Source: Enchytraeus crypticus (Eukaryota > Annelida > Clitellata > Enchytraeida > Enchytraeidae). From it: 64,000 bases of DNA. How positions within the stretch are numbered: the stretch's first letter is position 1; each line of letters starts with the position of its first letter. Below are positions 3,882 to 37,760 of the stretch, piece by piece. The stretch spans positions 124,001-188,000 of the forward strand of contig CAJHZI010000687.1 in the NCBI GenBank assembly GCA_905160935.1, given 5' to 3'. The notes beneath the pieces were generated by a model. The model searched no databases and was not told the DNA's origin. It saw only the letters and a program-made list of their open reading frames with translations. The position numbers and the translations under genes are program-made.

Positions 3882-4398
3882 ATGAAGGTTCTTAAGAGTG
3901 TTGCTGTTGCCGGTCTATCCTATGCAACAGTTCTTTCAGCAACCGATACACAATCAGCAACGGCCGGAACTACAACGACTCAACCATCATGGTTGACGAC
4001 AACACAACAAACGGTCAAAGACTATGGCAGCATTGATCTCAGTTCAGCTTATGAAAAACATCTCCGGGAATTCAACTTATTTCCTAATCCATCTACCTCA
4101 ACATCTAAAGCATCTCACGACGCAAGCTTATCTCTCTCTCAGACTCAAAACATCTCATCTTTTTACCATTCTAGCAACATCTCAGTCTATGATTTGTCGA
4201 CATCGGCAGCAGCTTCAGCCAATAGGAGCTCGAGAAGGAACAGAGTTCGAAGAAGACTTACCTTGCACGGAACTGGGCAGCCCACAAGGGCTGCGGTCAA
4301 GAAGGAGGCGCAGCTTTACAGCGTGTGGAAGAAACGTTTCGTTACAGTTGAGCGTAACGGAAGCCCGAGGACTACGTCACACAGAGATTCAGCGTTTT
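3882..4398 (+). CDS. FGF: FGF-family ligand, coding exon 1
   Basis: This exon encodes residues 1-172 plus the first base of codon 173 of a secreted FGF-type ligand. The ATG is preceded in frame by a TAA at 3858-3860, so it is the first possible start. Residues 1-21 look like a signal peptide (MKVLKSVAVAGLSYATVLSA). A Ser/Thr-rich pro-region follows with N-glycosylation sequons at N90, N99 and N114, then a polybasic stretch RRNRVRRR (118-125) that could be a furin-type site. The FGF core starts near Q144: AQLYSVWKKRFVTVERNG followed by the HRDSAF turn, matching the family's 'RLYCRTG...hLxI..DGxVxGtrd..S' block. The donor T|gttagt is phase 1, the phase implied by the canonical 104-bp FGF exon 2. 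The pro-region is longer than usual. Substrate receptors are not inferable from sequence. Confidence 0.8.
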
Positions 4399-5359
4399 GT
4401 TAGTATTAAAACAATAAAAGTAATAAAACAAGTAATCAAATAATAGAGACCGTTTATACTCCTTCTCTGTCTACTTTAGTATTTTAATTAGCTATTTTGT
4501 AGATTTAAGTTTAATCTCAATTCATTAATGTTTTAGAATTCCTTTCATTGTATTTTAAGCTCAACTTTTAATCTCCCGCTCTCCATCCCTCACTCCCCTT
4601 TCTGTGTCAGGTATTCTCTCCTCAGTGCACAGCCAAATGGCAGGTTCAAGGTACATATTCATACTCAAAGTCTGCTTCCTCGCTCCATTAGAGCACTCCT
4701 TAGATCAAAACGTTAAGCTCTTTACAAAGTCTTTGCCTTATCCATACCTTATGTAGCCTATAGCTTTGGAAAAATGTGGCTTCTGAGGTGGTTTCCCGTT
4801 GCCTTCCTCAGTTAGGTGGATTAATTACCATTTAATACTGGGGGAAAATATTTCATGATGAGGTGGGTCCCCTCTTGCCATCTTCAGCTCCAGCCTCAGT
4901 CGCCTCATACGTACACGCGGCAGATTGTTTGCGGTTGCCCTATTCTGCAGTGGTCCAACCACATCCGAGCACAACACGGGGAAGTTAGGTTATTATTGTT
5001 ACTATTGGTTGTTAGCTATTATTAACGCTGAATTTAAGGCTATCGGAGTCTTTGGCGAATTTTACCGGCATCCCAATAGATAGCTACCGGATTATCGAGG
5101 GGCTAGTCAATCTTGGATTTTATGAACGCTTGTTGTACCCGCTAAATTCCGCTTTTTAACCGGCCCACTTATCGTCTCAAATTCCACCGGTTAAAAAATT
5201 TAATTAATTATTCGATTATTCCATGTCTGCTTCGCTAACCTGTTAAAAGAGAAAGATAAAGCAATTATTTCTGTTGTTGAATCGATTTACGCTGATTTGA
5301 AGAAAAGTTGTTATATGCCTATTGATTGATTGACAGCTGTCATATTGGTTGATTGACAG
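4399..5359 (+). other. FGF intron 1
   Basis: Phase 1 intron, gttagt...gacag. It contains a 370-bp SINE-D-like element (4612-4983). A region at about 5010-5170 reads weakly like a decayed retroelement protein in broken frames; I do not identify it. The last 23 bp before the exon are tandemly duplicated together with the splice acceptor. Confidence 0.75.
4612..4983 (+). repeat. Repeat element D, copy 1
   Basis: A block of about 370 bp from 'cagtgcacagccaaatggcagg' to 'gcacaacacgggg'. It is highly similar to 52757-53131 (same order, same ends), with weaker copies at 6155-6400, 25790-25850, 53353-53650 and, inverted, 47840-48005. It is non-coding, and I infer a SINE or other short dispersed repeat. 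Confidence 0.85.
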
Positions 5360-5366
5360 CTGTCAT
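5314..5366 (+). promoter_or_regulatory. Duplicated 3' splice acceptor of FGF exon 2
   Basis: The motif 'gattgacagctgtcata' occurs twice, 23 bp apart, giving acceptor AGs at 5335-5336 and 5358-5359. The second fits: phase 1 joining gives Ser-Val-Ile-Glu-Val and an open exon. Use of the first would read into TGA within seven codons, so it would make a null transcript. Confidence 0.7.
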
Positions 5367-5889
5367 AGAGGTGTTATTCTGGTGCACACTGGCGTCCTCT
5401 CCCGTTCATCCCTGTCCGGTCAGTCCTGTCGATCCTAACAATCCTGCTAATAGCGGGAAGAATAAAAATCCGGACTTTCTGCCCGTCGGTAGGGACACCA
5501 GATCAACTGCTGAACGAGGCAGGGCATCCTTAGGAAAGACAAGTCCAGAACTCCATCAGAGCCCTGTCCAAGTGAACCAAGGTCATGGCCTCTTAATCCA
5601 GGACAGGGAGAAAGATAAATCCGGTCTTAACTTGGAATCTAACATAGCTCTGCTATCTCCACTTGGAAAAGATACAGAGGAGGGAGGAGATGTGGCATCC
5701 AATGGCAGCTGGAGGACTAAATCGTCAGGATCAATCCAGGACAGGAAAAAGGCGGATCGGGACTCGAGCGACATTTTGCCCGGGGTTAAGAAGCCGGTGA
5801 ACCCTTACAGCGCTGTCCTACTCTACTTCAAGCAAGCTAGGCGGTATCTGTGCATGGACCAGTATGGAAACCTTTACACTAAACCTAAG
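5360..5889 (+). CDS. FGF: FGF-family ligand, coding exon 2 (with ~142-codon insertion)
   Basis: This exon encodes residues 173-349 and is the equivalent of the usual 104-bp FGF core exon. It is 530 bp, exactly 426 bp (142 codons) longer, so the exon keeps its phases (1 in, 0 out). The start VIEVLFW (174-180) matches the beta strand 'LLEIRAV'. The end SAVLLYFKQARRYLCMDQYG (323-342) followed by NLYTKPK matches the hallmark 'vvxIkgvxSxxYLCMnxxGxLYgs'. Residues about 185-318 are a Pro/Ser/Lys/Asp-rich, low-hydrophobicity insert with no family I recognise. It lies where the beta4-beta5 region should be. The donor AAG|gtttgg joins in phase 0 to exon 3. The insert could instead be a retained intron, but it is open throughout and no internal GT/AG pair obviously removes it. 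Confidence 0.82.
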
Positions 5890-6447
5890 GTTTGGAGCAT
5901 TTAATTACAGCAATGGTGTACATTACTATATGGTTAATATTTAGTGATAAGTTGATAGTCTGAGATTTGATAAAATTTTCTTGAACAATATTGTTGCAGT
6001 ATTTTATTTGCAACTGTATTTTGCTGTATTTTATTTAACAATTAGATAAATGCATTCTTTGTATCATTATAATATTTCTCTTATCTAGATAAAGATGTTA
6101 TTTTTATTTCCATACTTTTTTTTTTTTTTTTTTAAGGATTATTCCAGTGTTCTTCCAAGTGACAAACACATGGTATATATTGCTACTCCCATGCTGTTTT
6201 CACGCTCCTTAAGGAGTAATTCACCGATTATTACAAGTTAATCCCTTCACAGAAGGCAGTTCCGTATTCATGCCTTTAATGTAGATTATAGCTCGGAAAT
6301 AATATAGCGTCTGAGGTGGTTTCTAGTTGCCTTCCTCAGTTCTTGCTTAGTTGCCTCTTACGACACATGCAACTTACGGTTGGTTGTAAGTTAGTGCCAT
6401 TGTAAGTTATTGTTAATGTATGACGGAATGCTGATTGCTTTTATTAG
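5890..6447 (+). other. FGF intron 2
   Basis: Phase 0 intron, gtttgg...tttattag, with a good pyrimidine tract (gattgcttttattag) at its end. It contains a poly-T run (about 6118-6134) and a degenerate element D copy (about 6155-6400). Confidence 0.8.
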
Positions 6448-8049
6448 AACAAAGCTACGGAAGACGGTGATTTGGAGGAATGTGTGTTCTTACATGCTTT
6501 CGTTCTTTCCAACAACGACGTCTACTACAGCTGGAAATACCCACACCAACTTTCCGAGTCTACCCAATCACAGACCCGCATTAACCATGAGATCGGCGGA
6601 GCCAATGAAAGCAGCCATTCAGCTAAGGTTAGCATTTTTCGTGATAACGAATCAGAGGATAGAGTTCCTACAGCTGCTGAGACTAGCTCAGCAGCTACGG
6701 CTGCTGCTGAGGGTGCATCAGGAATAGCTGAGACTTCTACTAGAGCAGCTGGAACTAAATCTTTGAAGATTCGCAGGCGAACAAAAGAGGGGAATGGAAT
6801 TAGCGAGCAACATGAGAGGCTGACTGCTGTGAATTCACGCATAAATGAACGGCGTGATATTATTAGTCCTAGCTCTTCAAAACAGCAGACTGGTGATGAA
6901 AAGCTAGCCGATGGGAACAGCAAGAATATTTCCAATGAGAAACAACAGATGATTGAGATCGATAAAGAAAGCGACAGACGAATTCCGATAAGAAGTTCAA
7001 ACAGACTGATGGACGAAATGACCTCTGACGTAAAATTAGGTGCATTTGTTAGCAAGGCTAGTCTCACTTCGAGAGTTTCTTTAAAGGAAGCTCAAACTGA
7101 GCAATCAAAGAATAGCTACAGTAGTCCAGTTGACTTCGACGAAGTAAAAGAAGAATCGAGTAGAGACAAGAAAGATCAGAAGATAACTTTTGAGCAGGAA
7201 TCACCGGTGTACAGTATATCATCACATCACTATGCGGAGAACGGTAAGAACGCTGACTTAACCGAAGTTCCCGCAAATCACCGTTCTGTAACAGATGCAC
7301 ATAATGTACAAGAGAGCATATCGTCGAATATCCCAAACGTATTAGAATCCGTCAATAAATTAAAGTATCGCGGAACTAGTAATGATTCTCCAACAACGAT
7401 TGCTGGCACTAAATCTAATGGCATCATTGTAGGGAAAGAGTTGGCAAAGAATCAGAGATCAGAGAACGATCTGAGAATCTCAGGTAGGGAAACAACGACA
7501 AATGAAAAGGTGGATGATAGATGCATAGAGCGATGGTTCTTAGGTACTAGAAAGGGAGATCGCAGTCTTACAACCTTTAAGACGAGTCCATGTAGAGGGA
7601 TTAGTTCCGGAATGCTGTTCATTCAACGGTGGATGGACAGGCGTCCTCAGGACAGGAGTCCTTACTCCTTGTATCCCTCGTCCTTCATTAACATCCCTTT
7701 GAGATCCACGCTGGATCAGAGGAAGTACAAGGATAGATCTGGTAAATTCATTGGTGGAGAGACGGATAATCCTTTGCATTCACCAGCATCATCAGCAGGA
7801 GTTAATCATCGTCAGCATCGCAACCACATTCGCAGAATCTTTCCACTTCTACTGCAGCATCGCGGTAAACTAAACTCCAAATATCAGGGATTAACGGGGT
7901 CACTTGAAAATACTATCACGAAGAAAAGGAAGTATAAAAGAAAAAGAACAAGGAAACAGATGATGAGAGATCAAGGTCAGGTAGCTTGCGCTAATCTGTT
8001 AAAGAATTGCGATCTGAGGCTTCGATCTATGAAGGTCATCTGGAATTAA
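6448..8049 (+). CDS. FGF: FGF-family ligand, terminal exon 3 (with ~325-residue insertion and long tail)
   Basis: This exon encodes residues 350-882 and the stop. EECVFLHAFVLSNNDVYYSW (359-378) aligns with the FGF exon 3 start 'eCvFxExxlENnYxxYxSxkY', with the conserved Cys (C361) and V-F kept. The usual Glu after CVF is His365. RWFLGTRKGDRS (711-722) is the strand 'WyvgLnkkGrprrG', and FIQRW resembles the closing 'hFlpR'. In ordinary FGFs these two parts are only about two to eight residues apart; here about 330 residues (381-710) intervene. The insert is rich in Ser, Glu, Lys, Asn and Ala, appears disordered, and has an Ala-rich patch and a basic RRR triplet (458-460). After the core comes a C-terminal tail of about 130 residues with a strongly basic cluster at 841-852 (KKRKYKRKRTRK), a possible heparin-binding or nuclear-targeting patch. 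The exon is open for 1.6 kb, so the insert is translated unless removed by unseen splicing. Confidence 0.82.
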   Translation, partial: NKATEDGDLEECVFLHAFVLSNNDVYYSWKYPHQLSESTQSQTRINHEIGGANESSHSAKVSIFRDNESEDRVPTAAETSSAATAAAEGASGIAETSTRAAGTKSLKIRRRTKEGNGISEQHERLTAVNSRINERRDIISPSSSKQQTGDEKLADGNSKNISNEKQQMIEIDKESDRRIPIRSSNRLMDEMTSDVKLGAFVSKASLTSRVSLKEAQTEQSKNSYSSPVDFDEVKEESSRDKKDQKITFEQESPVYSISSHHYAENGKNADLTEVPANHRSVTDAHNVQESISSNIPNVLESVNKLKYRGTSNDSPTTIAGTKSNGIIVGKELAKNQRSENDLRISGRETTTNEKVDDRCIERWFLGTRKGDRSLTTFKTSPCRGISSGMLFIQRWMDRRPQDRSPYSLYPSSFINIPLRSTLDQRKYKDRSGKFIGGETDNPLHSPASSAGVNHRQHRNHIRRIFPLLLQHRGKLNSKYQGLTGSLENTITKKRKYKRKRTRKQMMRDQGQVACANLLKNCDLRLRSMKVIWN

Positions 8050-8078
8050 TGAAATGAAGGTCATCTGGAATTAACTGC
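8015..8078 (+). repeat. 25-bp tandem duplication spanning the FGF stop codon
   Basis: 'atgaaggtcatctggaatta' occurs at about 8029 and again about 25 bp later, so the stop codon and last codons are duplicated into the 3' UTR. Confidence 0.85.
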
Positions 8079-11688: not shown

Positions 11689-12020
11689 AATAACAACAAT
11701 TAGAGTGCTACTGTCGGCTATGACTACACTGAGCACTATTGAGACAAACCCAAGCCTGTTAGCGAAAAGAAGGTCCTAAGCGGTGCAATTTTCAAAGTCC
11801 AGAAAGCCAGTCCAAAAATAAATGGAAATAAAGAAAGGGAGGCTTACGTGCTGGTAGTAACTCGTGGACATTGGATGGAAAAGAGAGATGGAAAAGGTAG
11901 GTCTTCAACTGCCTATGGAACTGCTCATATGAAAGTACAGGCTAGTGTGATTCAAACGAAGACTTCTGAAGAGTGGATGGAAGAGAATTCCAGATCTGCG
12001 GTTCAGATCTGGAAAGAACA
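11689..12020 (-). mobile_element. LINE-B 3' fragment
   Basis: Shares sequence with 17985-18300, 22497-22630, 43345-43486 and (inverted) 37490-37760. The best copy reads on the minus strand as IWNSLP...FHRQLKTYLFHLSF, a typical LINE ORF end, followed by about 150 bp of 3' UTR ending in aacaacaa-type sequence. All copies are 5'-truncated. Confidence 0.65.
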
Positions 12021-12437
12021 ATAAGATAGCTAACGGCGTGAAGGTAAGCTAGGTCTCACAAGAGTAATTAAATTAGACGACCGAGTAACAGAAGGCAGCA
12101 GTGCTTTAATAAAGGAAGACCTATAACTTTGTCAAGGGTTGTTATGGACTTATAGTCCATCACCATATAATCACCCATAATTATTCCTTCCTTAAAACCT
12201 TCCATCGCCTCCGTCACTACCACCTCGAAAAAGAGTTATGATGTAAATATAACATAATACCATCATATACGTTAACATGCACACAGACAATGAGAAAGCT
12301 AAGCCTCAATGCCTAGTGCTGACGAGGCTGAAACGAATATTACGAAGAAATTCTATCGAATTTAATTTCAATACCGACGTAAAAATAATATATTCAACAA
12401 TAATAACTGTGATTTCAAAGAGAAGAACTTATAAAGT

Positions 12438-17984: not shown

Positions 17985-18300
17985 TAACATAACAACAATT
18001 AGAGTACTACAGTCATCAATGACAACATCGAACCCTATTGAGACAAAATCAAGCCGGCGAGCATAAAGAAGGTCCAAAAGCGGTGCAAATTCCAAAATCC
18101 AGATAATCAGTCCAAAGTAAGACGAATTAAAGAAAAGGAGGTTTCGGCGCAGGTCGCTGCTCATAGACACTGGATGGAAAAGAGAGATGGAAAAGATAGG
18201 TCTTCAACTGCCTATGGAACTGCTCATAGGAAAGCCAAGGCCGATGTGCCTCAAATGAAGATTTCCGAAGAATGGATGGAAGAGAATTCCAGATCATTAA
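17985..18300 (-). mobile_element. LINE-B 3' fragment, best copy
   Basis: The minus strand reads an open end of a LINE ORF (IWNSLP, then FHRQLKTYLFHLSF) followed by a 3' UTR that matches the other LINE-B copies almost base for base. Truncated at the 5' end. Confidence 0.7.
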
Positions 18301-18309
18301 ATACAGCCT

Positions 18310-18696
18310 CAATAATCAGAAATTCTTAAATAAAGCACTCTTACCTATTTTCAGTAACACTTACAAATATTTTATCTAAATGTGTCTCAGAAATTATTAA
18401 CAAATGTCTTAACTATGGTTCAGAAACTTTTCACAAATCATATCTCTCTGTCTCAGAAATATCTAACAAACCGTGAAGGTTAAATAACATATATGAATGT
18501 AAGAATGTGCAACACTGCCCATTGGCAAAGAACTTATCCAGTACAAAGAGACTAAAGTGCTGACAACTTAGTCCTTCACTACTGCAGCTGAATTGTTCAC
18601 ATTTTGTGGTAGTGTTTGGCTTAAGTTAATATTTTTGATCAAAGGGACAAAAAATTAGATTAATTACTTAAATGTATTGCAATAATATAATCATCA

Positions 18697-21042: not shown

Positions 21043-22190
21043 CTAGCATCAGACGACCTTCAATTTGGTTTTAAAAAGGGGATAGGATGTTCTAATGCTA
21101 TATTTGTTTTTAGTCAAGCAGTGAAGTATTTTAATTCGAAAGGGAGCTCAAGGCAACTTTAGATTTTAAAAAGGCGTATGATAAAATTAATCACTATAAA
21201 CTCCTGTCATCTTTGGTTAAGCATGGTATTCCAGTGTGGGTTATAGTACTGCTACATGATTGGTATAACAAACTATTCGTTAATGTTAGATGGAGGGGGT
21301 GTGTATCTAGGGGGTTTTCAGAGAGAAGTGGTGTACGACAGGGTAGTTCTATTTCTCCTGCGTTATTTAATGTGTTTATAAATACATTTATTCTTGCTTT
21401 AAAAGATAATAATATTGGATGTCAATTTTGTGGTCAGTACGTTGGCATTATTATGTATGCTGATGATTTACTTTTAATCTTGGCTAGCGTTGCTGGTCTT
21501 CAAGAAATGTTAAATACCTGCTACTCAGTTAGTGTGAACACCATGTTAGAATTTAATTATAACAAGTCAAGCTGTGCTGTCATAGGATCAGCTAGTAAAT
21601 ATAATATTGAAAACATGACGCTTGGGGGAAATAAATTAGAATGGTGTACAACCGTTAGATACTTGGGTGCCACGTTTACAGCCGGAAAGAAGCTATTTGT
21701 AGATACAGCTCCAATTAAAAGGAAATTTTATTTGTCAGTTAATTGTATTTTAGGAAAAACTAGGTGTACCGACGACACAGTTAAACTCGCTTTAATGGAG
21801 TCGCATTGTCTTCCGATTCAGCTATAATCATCTACAGCCGTTAGTTATTCCAAAGAGCAGCTTGTTGATCTTGATGCATGTTGGAACTCAGTGTATCGAC
21901 GAATCTTTGGTTTTAATCGCTGGGATTCTGTCAGGGTATTTGTTGCGGGATTAGGCCGAATGGATTTTGCTTCAATTCGTGCTTATTTATGTTTGAAATT
22001 TTACAAAGAAGGAATTAAGTCATGTAATTTAGTTTTTTAGGCGTATTAAGACGGTCCATCTTTTCAAAAGACTTGAGAACTCTATGTAAAATTGTAAATT
22101 TAGAATTAAATTACCAATCTTTAATCGAAATATCGTTACGCAATATGAAACAAAATGTCTATAACAATTTTTGTGGAAGCGCTCTAGTGT
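21043..22190 (+). pseudogene. Decayed LINE reverse transcriptase
   Basis: Non-LTR retrotransposon RT fragment, 5'-truncated and broken by frameshifts. The first block reads DLQFGFKKGIGCSNAIFVFS (RT motif around QFGF.kg.s). After a frameshift near 21160 comes TLDFKKAYDKINHYKL, then RSGVRQGSSISPALFNVFIN and IIMYADDLLL with the catalytic YADD at 21456-21467. A second break lies near 21825. The continuation has DACWNSVYRRIFGF and LGRMDFASIRAYL, typical of the C-terminal thumb/connection of CR1/Jockey-like elements. The open part (21213-21827) is 204 codons. The clade is my inference; RTE or L2 relatives are possible. No endonuclease domain is visible. Confidence 0.85.
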
Positions 22191-32862: not shown

Positions 32863-33137
32863 GTGTGGAGTGTTCATTTATAATCTTACGTGTGATCGTA
32901 CATGACGTTCAGTTATGCATCCGTTCTGTACAGATATAATTGGAAAGTTCGTAGATACTATTGCTATGTATTTTTTCGCAATAGACAGCAAAGCCAATGT
33001 AATTGTAGCATATATTTCATTTTACAATTTGTATGTAGTAGCAATAGTATTACATGTATTTCGTGTTGTATAGTAGTATTAGATAATGAAGCCTTGAATT
33101 CAAATAGTAAAATCATTATATTACAACTGTTCTTCAG

Positions 33138-33666
33138 ATAAAGACAGCTGATCCAGATGGTCTTCTTCTCTACATGGAAGGACAGAATCAGCACCTTCAT
33201 CTTCCACCGTCGAACAGTACCCCTACTCCAACCACACCTAGACATGACTTCCTTTGTGTGGAGCTCGTATCAGGAGTTGTCCATTACTCTTTTGACATAG
33301 GAGGGGCTGAAAATCGTATTTCTGGACGTCTAAAATCTGGGGGAGGTAGCATAGCAAACGATCGCTGGCACACAGTCGCCATCTTGCGTCCTAGTATGAC
33401 TCAGCATATTCTGCGCGTGGATGACTCAGTGGCCTTCGTTCATCAGTCCAATCCGATCAGCTTTGAGTTGATTGACAGGCTATATATAGCTGGGGTACCC
33501 GCCCATATGTACCGTAGGCTATCGGAAGGCGTGGTTAACAGGCGAGGGTTTCGCGGCTGTCTGGGTTCTGTTGATTTAGATGGCAATGGGGCGGGGCTAC
33601 TGGAGCAAGAGGGGCGTGTCATATTGCCTTCAGCCTATCTGAGAGATATACGGAGAGGCTGTAACG
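33138..33666 (+). CDS. NRXN: Neurexin exon: LNS5 core
   Basis: 176 codons plus one base; acceptor ctgttcttcag, donor AACG|gtttgt; phases 0 and 1. It starts IKTADPDGLLLYMEG (family: FKTxxxDGlilYn). Then come FLCVELVSGVVHYSFDIGG, NDRWHTVAILR, RLYIAGVP and FRGCLGSVDLDG, and it closes at RRGCN, which supplies the second half of the domain disulfide. This is the laminin-neurexin-sex hormone globulin (LNS/LamG) fold of the presynaptic adhesion receptor neurexin. A Pro/Thr/Ser/His-rich loop of about 20 residues (HLPPSNSTPTPTTPRH) after the first strand is extra compared with vertebrates. FLC adds an unpaired cysteine. Confidence 0.93.
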
Positions 33667-34049
33667 GTTTGTATCAATACAATACTGTTTCGTTAGGTCT
33701 CAAATAAAGTATTTTATGCGTAATTATTAATTGCTGTTAACGCTTATCATAGGGCTCTGTAAGTAGAAAAGTGGTGGTCCAAAATGGATTAGTCACAGGC
33801 ATGACAGACATGCTCCCACTAAACCAAGATTCATATCAAACCAGTGGAAACATTGATAAAATAAGCTATGCAGTCCCAACTAAGCGTAACTCCTTGAGTG
33901 ATAGAACCTTTCCAAATACAGTTTCGCAGTAGCAATCGCTAAAATTATGGCATTTATGACACGAGAGTGATTTCCTGAGGTTCCAGTTGAATTTCTAAGA
34001 CTAATTAATTGATGTAATAGGGTTCCACACAAATAGGCCTATTTATAGT

Positions 34050-35325: not shown

Positions 35326-37489
35326 CCGATAATTATAATTGTATTCTTGTTTTGCTATTCACCGATAGGAAATGATAATAGGCTAGCAATAAAATATGTG
35401 TATTAAGAAAGAAATTAGTTTAACGAAAAAAATTTCATATTACATGCATGTTGTTCGAGAGTCAGGTGAATTTTGTGTCACACGGTATGTTAGATTAAGC
35501 CTAAAAATTGTCATTTCTAAACGAATAACCAAACTTCGTCCTAATTATATTTAAATAACGTGAACTTTTCTCCAAATAAATTCAAAAAGTATTAACTTCC
35601 TCTTTAGATTGTATGGACCTTTTTAAATGTGCAGTCTACAAGGCCACCTAATTCTCTAAATGTATCGTTTATAGTATCTTTATATAGCTCTATATATGGA
35701 AAGTAAATTGAAATGAAATACTTGTAGGCGGAAAGCGGAAAGTATTACTCTGATAAAAAGGATGCACGTCATTAGTGAAACTATCATTAGACAATAGCAT
35801 TCGCTGTTTTATACTGATTTTTGTCTCAATTAGCTCTAACAGTCTGAAGTTGTCCTGTAAAACTACGTGCAGATCAGAGTGTGATAGACATTTCTGCTTA
35901 GAGGGGAGGGGACATACCCGCCCTCCCCATGAAAAATCCTGACAAATATGAAAATAAATAAAAAACTTATAACCTCCTTGGGTCCTTAAGCTGTCACTCC
36001 GGATATCATCTCATTTGAAACACCCCCCCCCCTCCATCCTTTTCCGGATAAAATTTGTTGAATATAATGCTGCAGACGAGAAAATGTTTGGTGTGGATTA
36101 ATATCCATTTGCATGGCACCACGCATATTACAGATATACTTTAAAGAATGAGAGAGAGAACAGAAGTGGGAACTGCAGGTAAAGAGAATTCATGGAACTG
36201 AAGGAACAGATATCGAGGCATTAGGCACAATGAGTATGCATTTTATAAACCTAGACGAGAAAGAAACTATAGCATAAAGCAACAGTCTGAGTGCTTTAGA
36301 GTCTTTAGCTCTGGGTTTCGAGAATAATTACCAAAAATGTAGTATTACAGAGCAGAAAGCGGTCGCTATACCGTGTGCTCGTATCGAGGGATTTGTCATC
36401 GTCTTGATAAATGCGGAGAGTGGAGGTTCAAGTCACGGTCTCGTACATGTCCTACACAATGGCTGCTCTACCTTCTCTCCGCCTTTGTCTCCTAGCTGAG
36501 CATTGTTGCGATTTTGTAGCGAAAATGAGGCACTAAGATTTCCCTTTCGTTTATTTTACAGAATTGTATAAGCTTCTTCTGCTTGTTTTCTTTTTCTTTT
36601 TTCATATACATGCATAATGGAGCTTTTGTGCATTTAGAATTTTCTGCATGATCTGTCGCTTAACTTCATTTTTCATGTTGTACTGTAGGTTAATAGTTAA
36701 TTGTATGAGATTAGGTTGCCTTGTTGACAGAGCGCAGTCAATCAGTTTGACAAGCACGACTCCATAGGTTCGAATCCGATACAGATTCATTTCTGATATT
36801 TTACTATTGCCGCGGATACATTCGCTAAACCGACCTCTTGATTGATATATCATTCTTATTGTAACTTAACAAGACTTCATTTTATTTAACTTATGCTTTG
36901 ATACAAATGATTTGACTCGTATACAGATTTATATATATAAACGTAATAATAGCCACTCCACTGAATTGGCTAAGCTATTGTTTGTAAATCCATATATTGT
37001 TAATCATTTCACTTTCTGTGTGCTCTCTTATTACGACATTATCGTAAATGTAAGTTACTTCAAAGAGGAAGAGAGGGATTGTGAAATTTATAGATCCTGT
37101 TCAGATTTGAATCCCAGAAGACTCGAGAAAGTTAACGACTTCATAGACTAATCCACTGAGGACAATAATTTCTGCAAGATCAATAGGACTTGAAACGTTT
37201 CCATGTAGTTTTTGTTGGGTCCCATTGAAGCAAATTATCAGAGATTCAATAAAGATACAAGCATTCAAATAATCAGCAGTGGTATGTAATTAGTATCGTT
37301 ATAGAAACGACTGGGCAAATGATTAGATGAGTTTACTGATGAGTTTTGTTCTAAATACTGTTTCTAAGGAATACTGTTTCTAAGGAAATTCGGCTCCCGG
37401 TGAGATGTGAAGCAAGAGTAGCGTAGTCTGGGGTTTGAGAAAATTTTAATTTTTGTTGCAATTTGTGCATCGCAATTCAAATATATTAC

Positions 37490-37760
37490 AACTGTCATCC
37501 AATCTTCTGAAGTCTTTGTTTGAATGACGTCGCCCTTTGATTTCCTTTGAGCAGTTCCATAGGCAGTTGAAGACCTATCTTTTCCGTCTCTCTTTTCCAT
37601 CCAGTGTCCATGAGCAGCGACCTGCGCCCAAACCTCCTTTTCTTTAATTTCTTTTATCTTTGGACAGATTTTGTTGCTTTTCAGAATTTGCACTGTTTTG
37701 GACCTTCTTTTGGCTCACCGGCTTGGATTTGTCTCAACAATGCTCGATGTTGTCATGAAC
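37490..37760 (+). mobile_element. LINE-B 3' fragment (opposite orientation)
   Basis: Inverse complement of the copies at 11689-12020 and 17985-18300; reads FPLISFEQFHRQLKTYLF-like residues on the + strand. Confidence 0.65.

Follow-up and report, generated by a model that had tools for sequence, protein, structure and literature searches.

An FGF-like gene of the annelid Enchytraeus crypticus with long inserts at two sites within its predicted core

The FGF-like gene and its exon structure

The window analysed here is a 64,000-nucleotide stretch of the genome of Enchytraeus crypticus (contig CAJHZI010000687.1; C591:124001-188000 within the 524 Mb in 802 contigs that were searched). The 15,205-base mitochondrial contig of this genome points to an annelid: its open frames, all in one orientation, were read in the order cox1, cox2, atp8, cox3, nad6, cob, atp6, nad5, nad4L, nad4, a gap presumed to hold the rRNA genes, nad1, nad3 and nad2, as is common in annelids; cox1 was assigned by a profile. 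The window carries on the + strand a fibroblast growth factor (FGF)-like gene of three exons (3882-4398, 5360-5889 and 6448-8049), which on splicing give a single frame of 882 residues without internal stops. Two paralogues found elsewhere in the genome, C379 and C750, were used for comparison. The original prediction had placed three exons in this order on this strand, with a start codon at 3882, a stop codon at 8047-8049 and introns in phases 1 and 0; the order of the open frames, both codons, both junction phases and the predicted length of 882 residues were reproduced. The following features were assigned.

3882..4398, + strand: exon 1, with the frame open up to base 4403; begins with a hydrophobic stretch (MKVLKSVAVAGLSYATVLSA), followed by a propeptide rich in Ser and Thr, a cluster of basic residues and FGF beta1-beta3
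4242..4253, + strand: furin-type site RVRR, residues 121-124, from a motif scan; putative cleavage site
4305..4398, + strand: FGF core beta1-beta3 (EAQLYSVWKKRFVTVERNGSPRTTSHRDSAF), which joined to the exon-2 core matches Pfam FGF
4399..5359, + strand: intron 1, phase 1, with the acceptor picked by homology with exon 2 of C379 and C750
5360..5889, + strand: exon 2, 530 bp; the counterpart is 185 bp in the reading common to both paralogues
5360..5394, + strand: probable beta4 strand (S)VIEVLFWCTLA (IVKVLYLCWIA in C379, VLQVLCLCCIA in C750)
5395..5814, + strand: insert 1, 140 residues in the beta4-beta5 turn, counted from the Ala to the VLL that all three genes share
5815..5889, + strand: FGF core beta5-beta7 (VLLYFKQARRYLCMDQYGNLYTKPK), Pfam FGF positions 43-68
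5890..6447, + strand: intron 2, phase 0, with the same position and phase in C379 and C750
6448..8049, + strand: exon 3 including the stop codon, an open frame of 533 codons
6448..6540, + strand: FGF core beta8-beta9 (ECVFLHAFVLSNNDVYYSWKY), 55 % identical to C379 over 34 residues
6541..7533, + strand: insert 2, 331 residues in the beta9-beta10 loop, counted after the beta9 SWKY up to the beta10 Trp
7534..7647, + strand: FGF core beta10-beta12 (WFLGTRKGDRSLTTF...MLFIQRWMDRRP), from a profile match to other FGFs
7648..8046, + strand: basic C-terminal tail, from translation and composition
7987..8010, + strand: C-terminal motif CANLLKNC, matching CSNLLSGSC in C379 and CNNLLSSQC in C750

The exon-1 donor (TTTT/GTTAGT, after base 4398) gives phase 1, and the intron 2 junction (KPK/gtttgg ... 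ttattag/AAC) lies in phase 0; the same phases were found in the paralogues. We take the two introns to lie at the FGF intron-1 and intron-2 positions, and phases 1 and 0 to be the core intron phases of the family. At 533 codons the frame of exon 3 exceeds what chance would give: among 30 windows of 64 kb generated with an order-2 Markov model, no run was longer than 194 codons.

The start of exon 2 was chosen with the help of the paralogues. Acceptors at 5423 (giving an 862-residue model) and 5453 look better by sequence than the one at 5359 but are in phase 2, and they were dropped because the reading shared by exon 2 of the paralogues starts further upstream, in phase 1. Each of C379 and C750 has an in-phase acceptor that yields an exon 2 of 185 bp, and the encoded peptide can be aligned with that of the window gene from base 5362 on, the first residues (IVKVLYLCWIASSSFRSCP and VLQVLCLCCIAPRSFRPCP, respectively) matching VIEVLFWCTLASSPVHPCP of the window gene. 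This start aligned with a score of 53 for C379, which none of 20000 shuffles reached, and with a score of 47 for C750, which two of 20000 reached. Since the 185-bp reading is common to both paralogues, the acceptor at 5359 and the 882-residue model are favoured.

Two repeats were seen within the gene: a 63-base repeat, 83 % identical between its copies, lies in both introns (window 4751-4813 and 6279-6341), and at window 8029-8074 the 21 bases up to and including the stop codon recur without a mismatch, the two copies starting 25 bases apart.

FGF identity of the split core

With its inserts kept, the whole protein matched Pfam FGF (PF00167, 124 positions; cut-off 24 bits) at 25.9 bits over positions 43-93. 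Removal of the inserts raised the score to 41.3 bits, or to 42.4 bits when the probable beta4 strand was kept, and extended the match to positions 3-116; the choice of cuts drew on what is known of FGFs, which somewhat favours these trimmed-core scores. The identity first proposed for the gene was therefore borne out above the cut-off in both forms, and the profile search suggested as its check matched the three joined exons to FGF. Among solved structures the trimmed core was closest to FGF1 (4yol; E 8e-4), followed by FGF18 (2.3e-3) and FGF23 (7.8e-3).

Taken singly, exon 2 matched FGF at 13.3 bits and exons 1 and 3 matched no family. The exon-1 and exon-2 cores together reached 26.7-27.9 bits (positions 3-68), and the exon-2 core joined to beta8-beta9 reached 24.3 bits, rising to 31.4 bits with beta10-beta12 added; as a control, beta10-beta12 was replaced in turn by nine 44-residue stretches from elsewhere in this frame, which gave 23.6-28.8 bits. 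The probable beta4 strand added only 1.1 bits. The RWFLG zone of beta10-beta12 scored 6.4 bits with a profile of ten FGF segments, compared with 0.7 bits or less in the rest of the frame, and four of 3000 composition-matched shuffles reached 6.4 bits (453 of 488 windows and 2922 of the shuffles received scores, the others being counted as lower). All the predicted FGF strand regions are thus present, and in order, as judged from the profile positions covered and the score of the beta10 zone. Protein database searches returned no relatives and were uninformative, one having only 4 candidates in a database that seems nearly devoid of animal FGFs.

Paralogues and other FGF genes of the genome

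When the genome was searched with the window protein, C379 was found through the beta8-beta9 segment (E 0.4), and a search with C379 found C750 (43 % identity over 225 residues, E 1e-26). Pfam identifies both as FGFs (39.1 and 45.7 bits, respectively), and in tblastn searches over short stretches the beta5-beta7 segment of the window gene matched both (E 1.4e-4 for C379 and 8.6e-6 for C750). A genome-wide FGF search yielded six places, with none of the window gene, C379 and C750 among them; these are taken to represent five genes, since the two places on C364 correspond to exons 2 and 3 of a single gene. The C364 gene matched FGF18 at E 2.4e-18.

A tree was built from 11 rows and 73 of 85 columns, using typed pieces from which the long loops had been removed. 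In this tree the window gene formed one clade with C379 and C750 (98/95) and the other five genes grouped with FGF8 and FGF18, which places the window gene outside the FGF8/17/18 subfamily. Its terminal branch was long (1.01 changes per column) compared with those of the two paralogues (0.19 and 0.14). FGF23 was the best match of C750 among solved structures (E 4.8e-5), with the likeness centred around beta6-beta9 (NGYDVFKSKSY vs NGYDVYHSPQY), and was also matched by the window core, after FGF1 and FGF18.

The window gene shares with C379 and C750 its subfamily, its exon phases, enlargement of the same two loops and a C-terminal CxNLLx(2,3)C motif. None of 200000 shuffles of the window tail contained this pattern, which was picked after the sequences had been seen. 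In the paralogues exon 2 opens with a hydrophobic stretch; a signal peptide at this place was contemplated but not adopted, as the C379 frame lacks a Met there, although C750 has one. A search of approximately 45 kb upstream of C379 exon 2 did not reveal its exon 1, and a genome search with exon 1 of the window gene did not retrieve it either.

The two inserts

The genes of this clade differ in the size of the shared loops. The beta4-beta5 segment of the window gene is 140 residues long, compared with 25 for both C379 and C750; the beta9-beta10 loop, which follows SWKY in the window gene and SKSY in both paralogues, comprises 331, 25 and 21 residues, respectively, compared with 2-4 in alignments of FGF1, FGF8 and FGF18. 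With 471 residues in its two loops, the window gene does not have a compact core of 120-130 residues, a length that is typical of FGFs and not defining, and the paralogues bridge the gap. Insert 1 probably lies in the beta4-beta5 turn, given that exon 2 opens with the putative beta4 strand and the insert follows only after it, ahead of beta5 (VLLYFK).

The core had been described at the outset as interrupted at two places by long disordered segments. The two interruptions were confirmed, and the 21-25-residue loops of the paralogues mark the sites of growth; disorder was indicated for insert 2 only. In a charge-hydropathy plot insert 2 fell on the disordered side (-0.089) and insert 1 on the line (0.016), and the measure is weak here because the joined core itself also fell on the disordered side (-0.050). 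Insert 2 is rich in Ser (14.8 %) and has no Trp and a single Cys, at its end (DRCIERW); the corresponding loops of the paralogues hold two Cys (PRC...YC), of which the window gene keeps the second only. N-glycosylation motifs occur in the two inserts at residues 287, 402, 416, 509 and 661.

The 3-base periodicity power of insert 2 (6550-7515) was 10.4, compared with 0.9-1.4 in the two introns and the downstream DNA. Insert 2 looks coding; insert 1 is less certain. A DNA search of the genome with 6550-7515 gave one match, the insert itself (the search skips simple repeats and scores best candidates only), and so gives no support to the idea that insert 2 arose recently from a transposon.

Of the eight FGF genes found in the genome, five have an enlarged core loop, and these loops lie at three distinct sites; the comparison covered exon 3 of every gene and the other exons only in part. 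Two FGF8-type genes, C296 and C672, carry in-frame inserts of 108 and 201 residues, respectively, between GRPxxx and the CYQFIK/CFQFIK strand, before beta12.

1630-1953 of L001 (C296): in-frame insert of an FGF8-type gene; frame of 203 codons
1624-2226 of L006 (C672): in-frame insert of an FGF8-type gene; frame of 272 codons

Their removal raised the FGF score from 33.2 to 36.7 bits in C296 and from 26.1 to 30.8 bits in C672. Both inserts showed only modest periodicity (1.67 and 2.41), a level also attained by one of four flanking controls (1.83). In several FGFs the main heparin-binding site includes loops between beta10 and beta12 (PMC4821243), the loop region in which these two inserts lie.

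Proposed interpretation

We consider it likely that the window gene is an intact annelid FGF ligand gene, whose product would be secreted, primed by furin and folded by closure of its split core into one beta-trefoil around two looped-out segments. It is supported by the open frames and their splice phases, by the FGF homology of the core segments that flank the inserts, by two paralogues in which these loops are moderately enlarged, with a related exon-2 start and a common tail motif, and by the coding signal of insert 2 and its single match, to itself, in the genome DNA search. The N-terminal hydrophobic segment, judged by eye, suggests a signal peptide through which the protein would probably enter the secretory route. 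RVRR is the single RX[KR]R site and stands 17 residues ahead of the core start at residue 142; furin would probably remove the propeptide there. The combination of hydrophobic segment and RVRR thus suggests a secreted, furin-processed precursor. The core segments may then close into one trefoil with 140 residues looped out of beta4-beta5 and 331 out of beta9-beta10, and the strands could still pair because both insert sites are turns in known FGFs and the ends of each insert would lie close together. The Ser-rich loops, with their N-glycosylation motifs, might act as a spacer or shield that tunes contact with the receptor or heparan sulfate. Secretion, furin cleavage, folding, receptor binding and the role of the loops are all predicted here from sequence.

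Several observations weigh against this interpretation. The weak point of the model is the acceptor at 5359, with its low pyrimidine content (0.56), and C379 has an alternative in-phase acceptor, its pyrimidine tract good by eye, that gives a 119-bp exon 2 omitting the shared peptide; C750 has no AG at this place. Exon 1 had no good relative in the genome but itself (next match E 0.018, 25 % identity, with stops), free local alignment gave no significant match between the tails of the window and C379 proteins (160 of 2000 shuffles scored as well), and a two-sequence profile of C379 and C750 did not detect the beta10-beta12 segment. In insert 1 (5424-5786) the frame is open and GC-rich (0.50), with a periodicity of only 1.95, and its codon score was not frame-specific (0.258 in frame vs 0.256 in another frame). 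The held-out codon score of insert 2 did not prefer the right frame (0.156 vs 0.182); the codon-usage model failed to separate frames and was not used as support.

The trefoil may no longer be a receptor ligand, the FGF pieces being kept in a secreted scaffold, decoy or matrix protein. Insert 2 occupies the beta9-beta10 loop, which in FGF2 is a described secondary receptor contact, and the resemblance of the beta10-beta12 piece to other FGFs is weak (6.4 bits). Core segments flanking each insert are nevertheless retained, as would be the case were folding important, and we regard this explanation as unlikely. Decay of a duplicate, with loops growing once constraint had been lost, would account for the long terminal branch and for the absence of the first loop Cys of the paralogues; it sits poorly with 882 codons free of internal stops and with the retention of the core, splice phases, C-terminal motif and coding periodicity, and seems quite unlikely.

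It is improbable that the inserts are spliced out of the mature message to leave an ordinary small FGF. No GTA or GTG donor occurs in 6501-6620, and no convincing splice pair was found near the ends of insert 2. Inside it lies one donor-like site (AAG/GTTAGC at 6628); among the AGs scanned in 7381-7530, those in frame with this site (7440, 7449, 7455, 7464, 7509 and 7530) are purine-rich, with 22-33 % pyrimidine, and the coding periodicity of this insert is strong. Beyond that donor-like site, such splicing is favoured by the weak exon-2 acceptor and by one in-frame donor/acceptor pair (5489, 5728) that could take 80 residues out of insert 1. That unrelated open frames were joined here and resemble FGF by chance is hardly credible, for although exons 1 and 3 alone lack a Pfam match and exon 2 matches weakly, the joined core scores 42.4 bits and paralogue homology, which already contradicts such an accident, spans exons 2 and 3.

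Within the interpretation of the gene as an intact FGF ligand, a further role for the inserts can be put forward tentatively, although we think it rather unlikely: they may serve as gates, with extracellular proteases cutting one or both loops in the folded trefoil and the nicked ligand, held together by strand pairing, being switched in its contact with the receptor or heparan sulfate. If this were so, growth of core loops would be a repeated annelid mode of FGF regulation, because four other FGFs of the genome have enlarged loops, two of them at a different site.

The FGF core is regarded as compact, and the family serves as a model of protein folding and of the recognition of receptors and heparan sulfate. 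The present gene suggests that this well-studied fold may tolerate far larger loops than are usually described. Together with its shorter-loop paralogues it forms a series in which it can be asked which turns can open and how the beta9-beta10 loop affects receptor or heparan sulfate binding. Such genes can escape ordinary profile searches, as the genome-wide FGF search missed all three members of this clade.

Comparison with known FGFs

Known FGF cores comprise approximately 120-130 residues (PMC3420111). The window gene resembles vertebrate-type FGFs (FGF1, FGF8/17/18 and FGF23) in the order of its core segments and has the YLCM...ECVF cysteine pair seen in FGF18/FGF8 alignments, but differs from them in the 471 residues held in two loops of its core. 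Large FGF precursors are known from Drosophila: Thisbe (748 residues) and Pyramus (766 residues) contain long low-complexity sequence, with evidence of cleavage, and the extra sequence lies beyond FGF domains of 122 and 128 residues, respectively (PMC2923630), whilst in Branchless furin cuts N-terminal to the FGF domain (PMC9203819). The annelid gene is alike in encoding a large precursor and has extra sequence inside the core as well.

Amongst annelids, a study of Alitta reported two FGFs in nereids and one in Capitella, with ligand cores of approximately 120 residues; FGFA of Alitta virens and Platynereis lies outside FGF8/17/18 and was unplaced in trees (PMC8224027). The window gene is likewise an annelid FGF outside FGF8/17/18, with a core far longer than those given in that study. 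Core inserts are not mentioned in the passages covered of PMC3420111, PMC8180254, PMC4244043 and PMC10146080. No FGF with large core inserts was found among the open-access titles and abstract openings listed, which leave most subscription journals uncovered and are weak evidence of absence.

Other features of the window

Downstream of the FGF gene and on the same strand, a Laminin G exon was identified at 33111-33707 (Laminin_G_2, 70 bits), neurexin-like by eye. A reverse transcriptase fragment is present at 21135-21827 (RVT_1, 78.9 bits). Three open frames, at 11743-12024, 18042-18329 and 37364-37714, encode nearly the same peptide (HWMEKRDGKDRSSTAYGTA) and probably represent an interspersed repeat.

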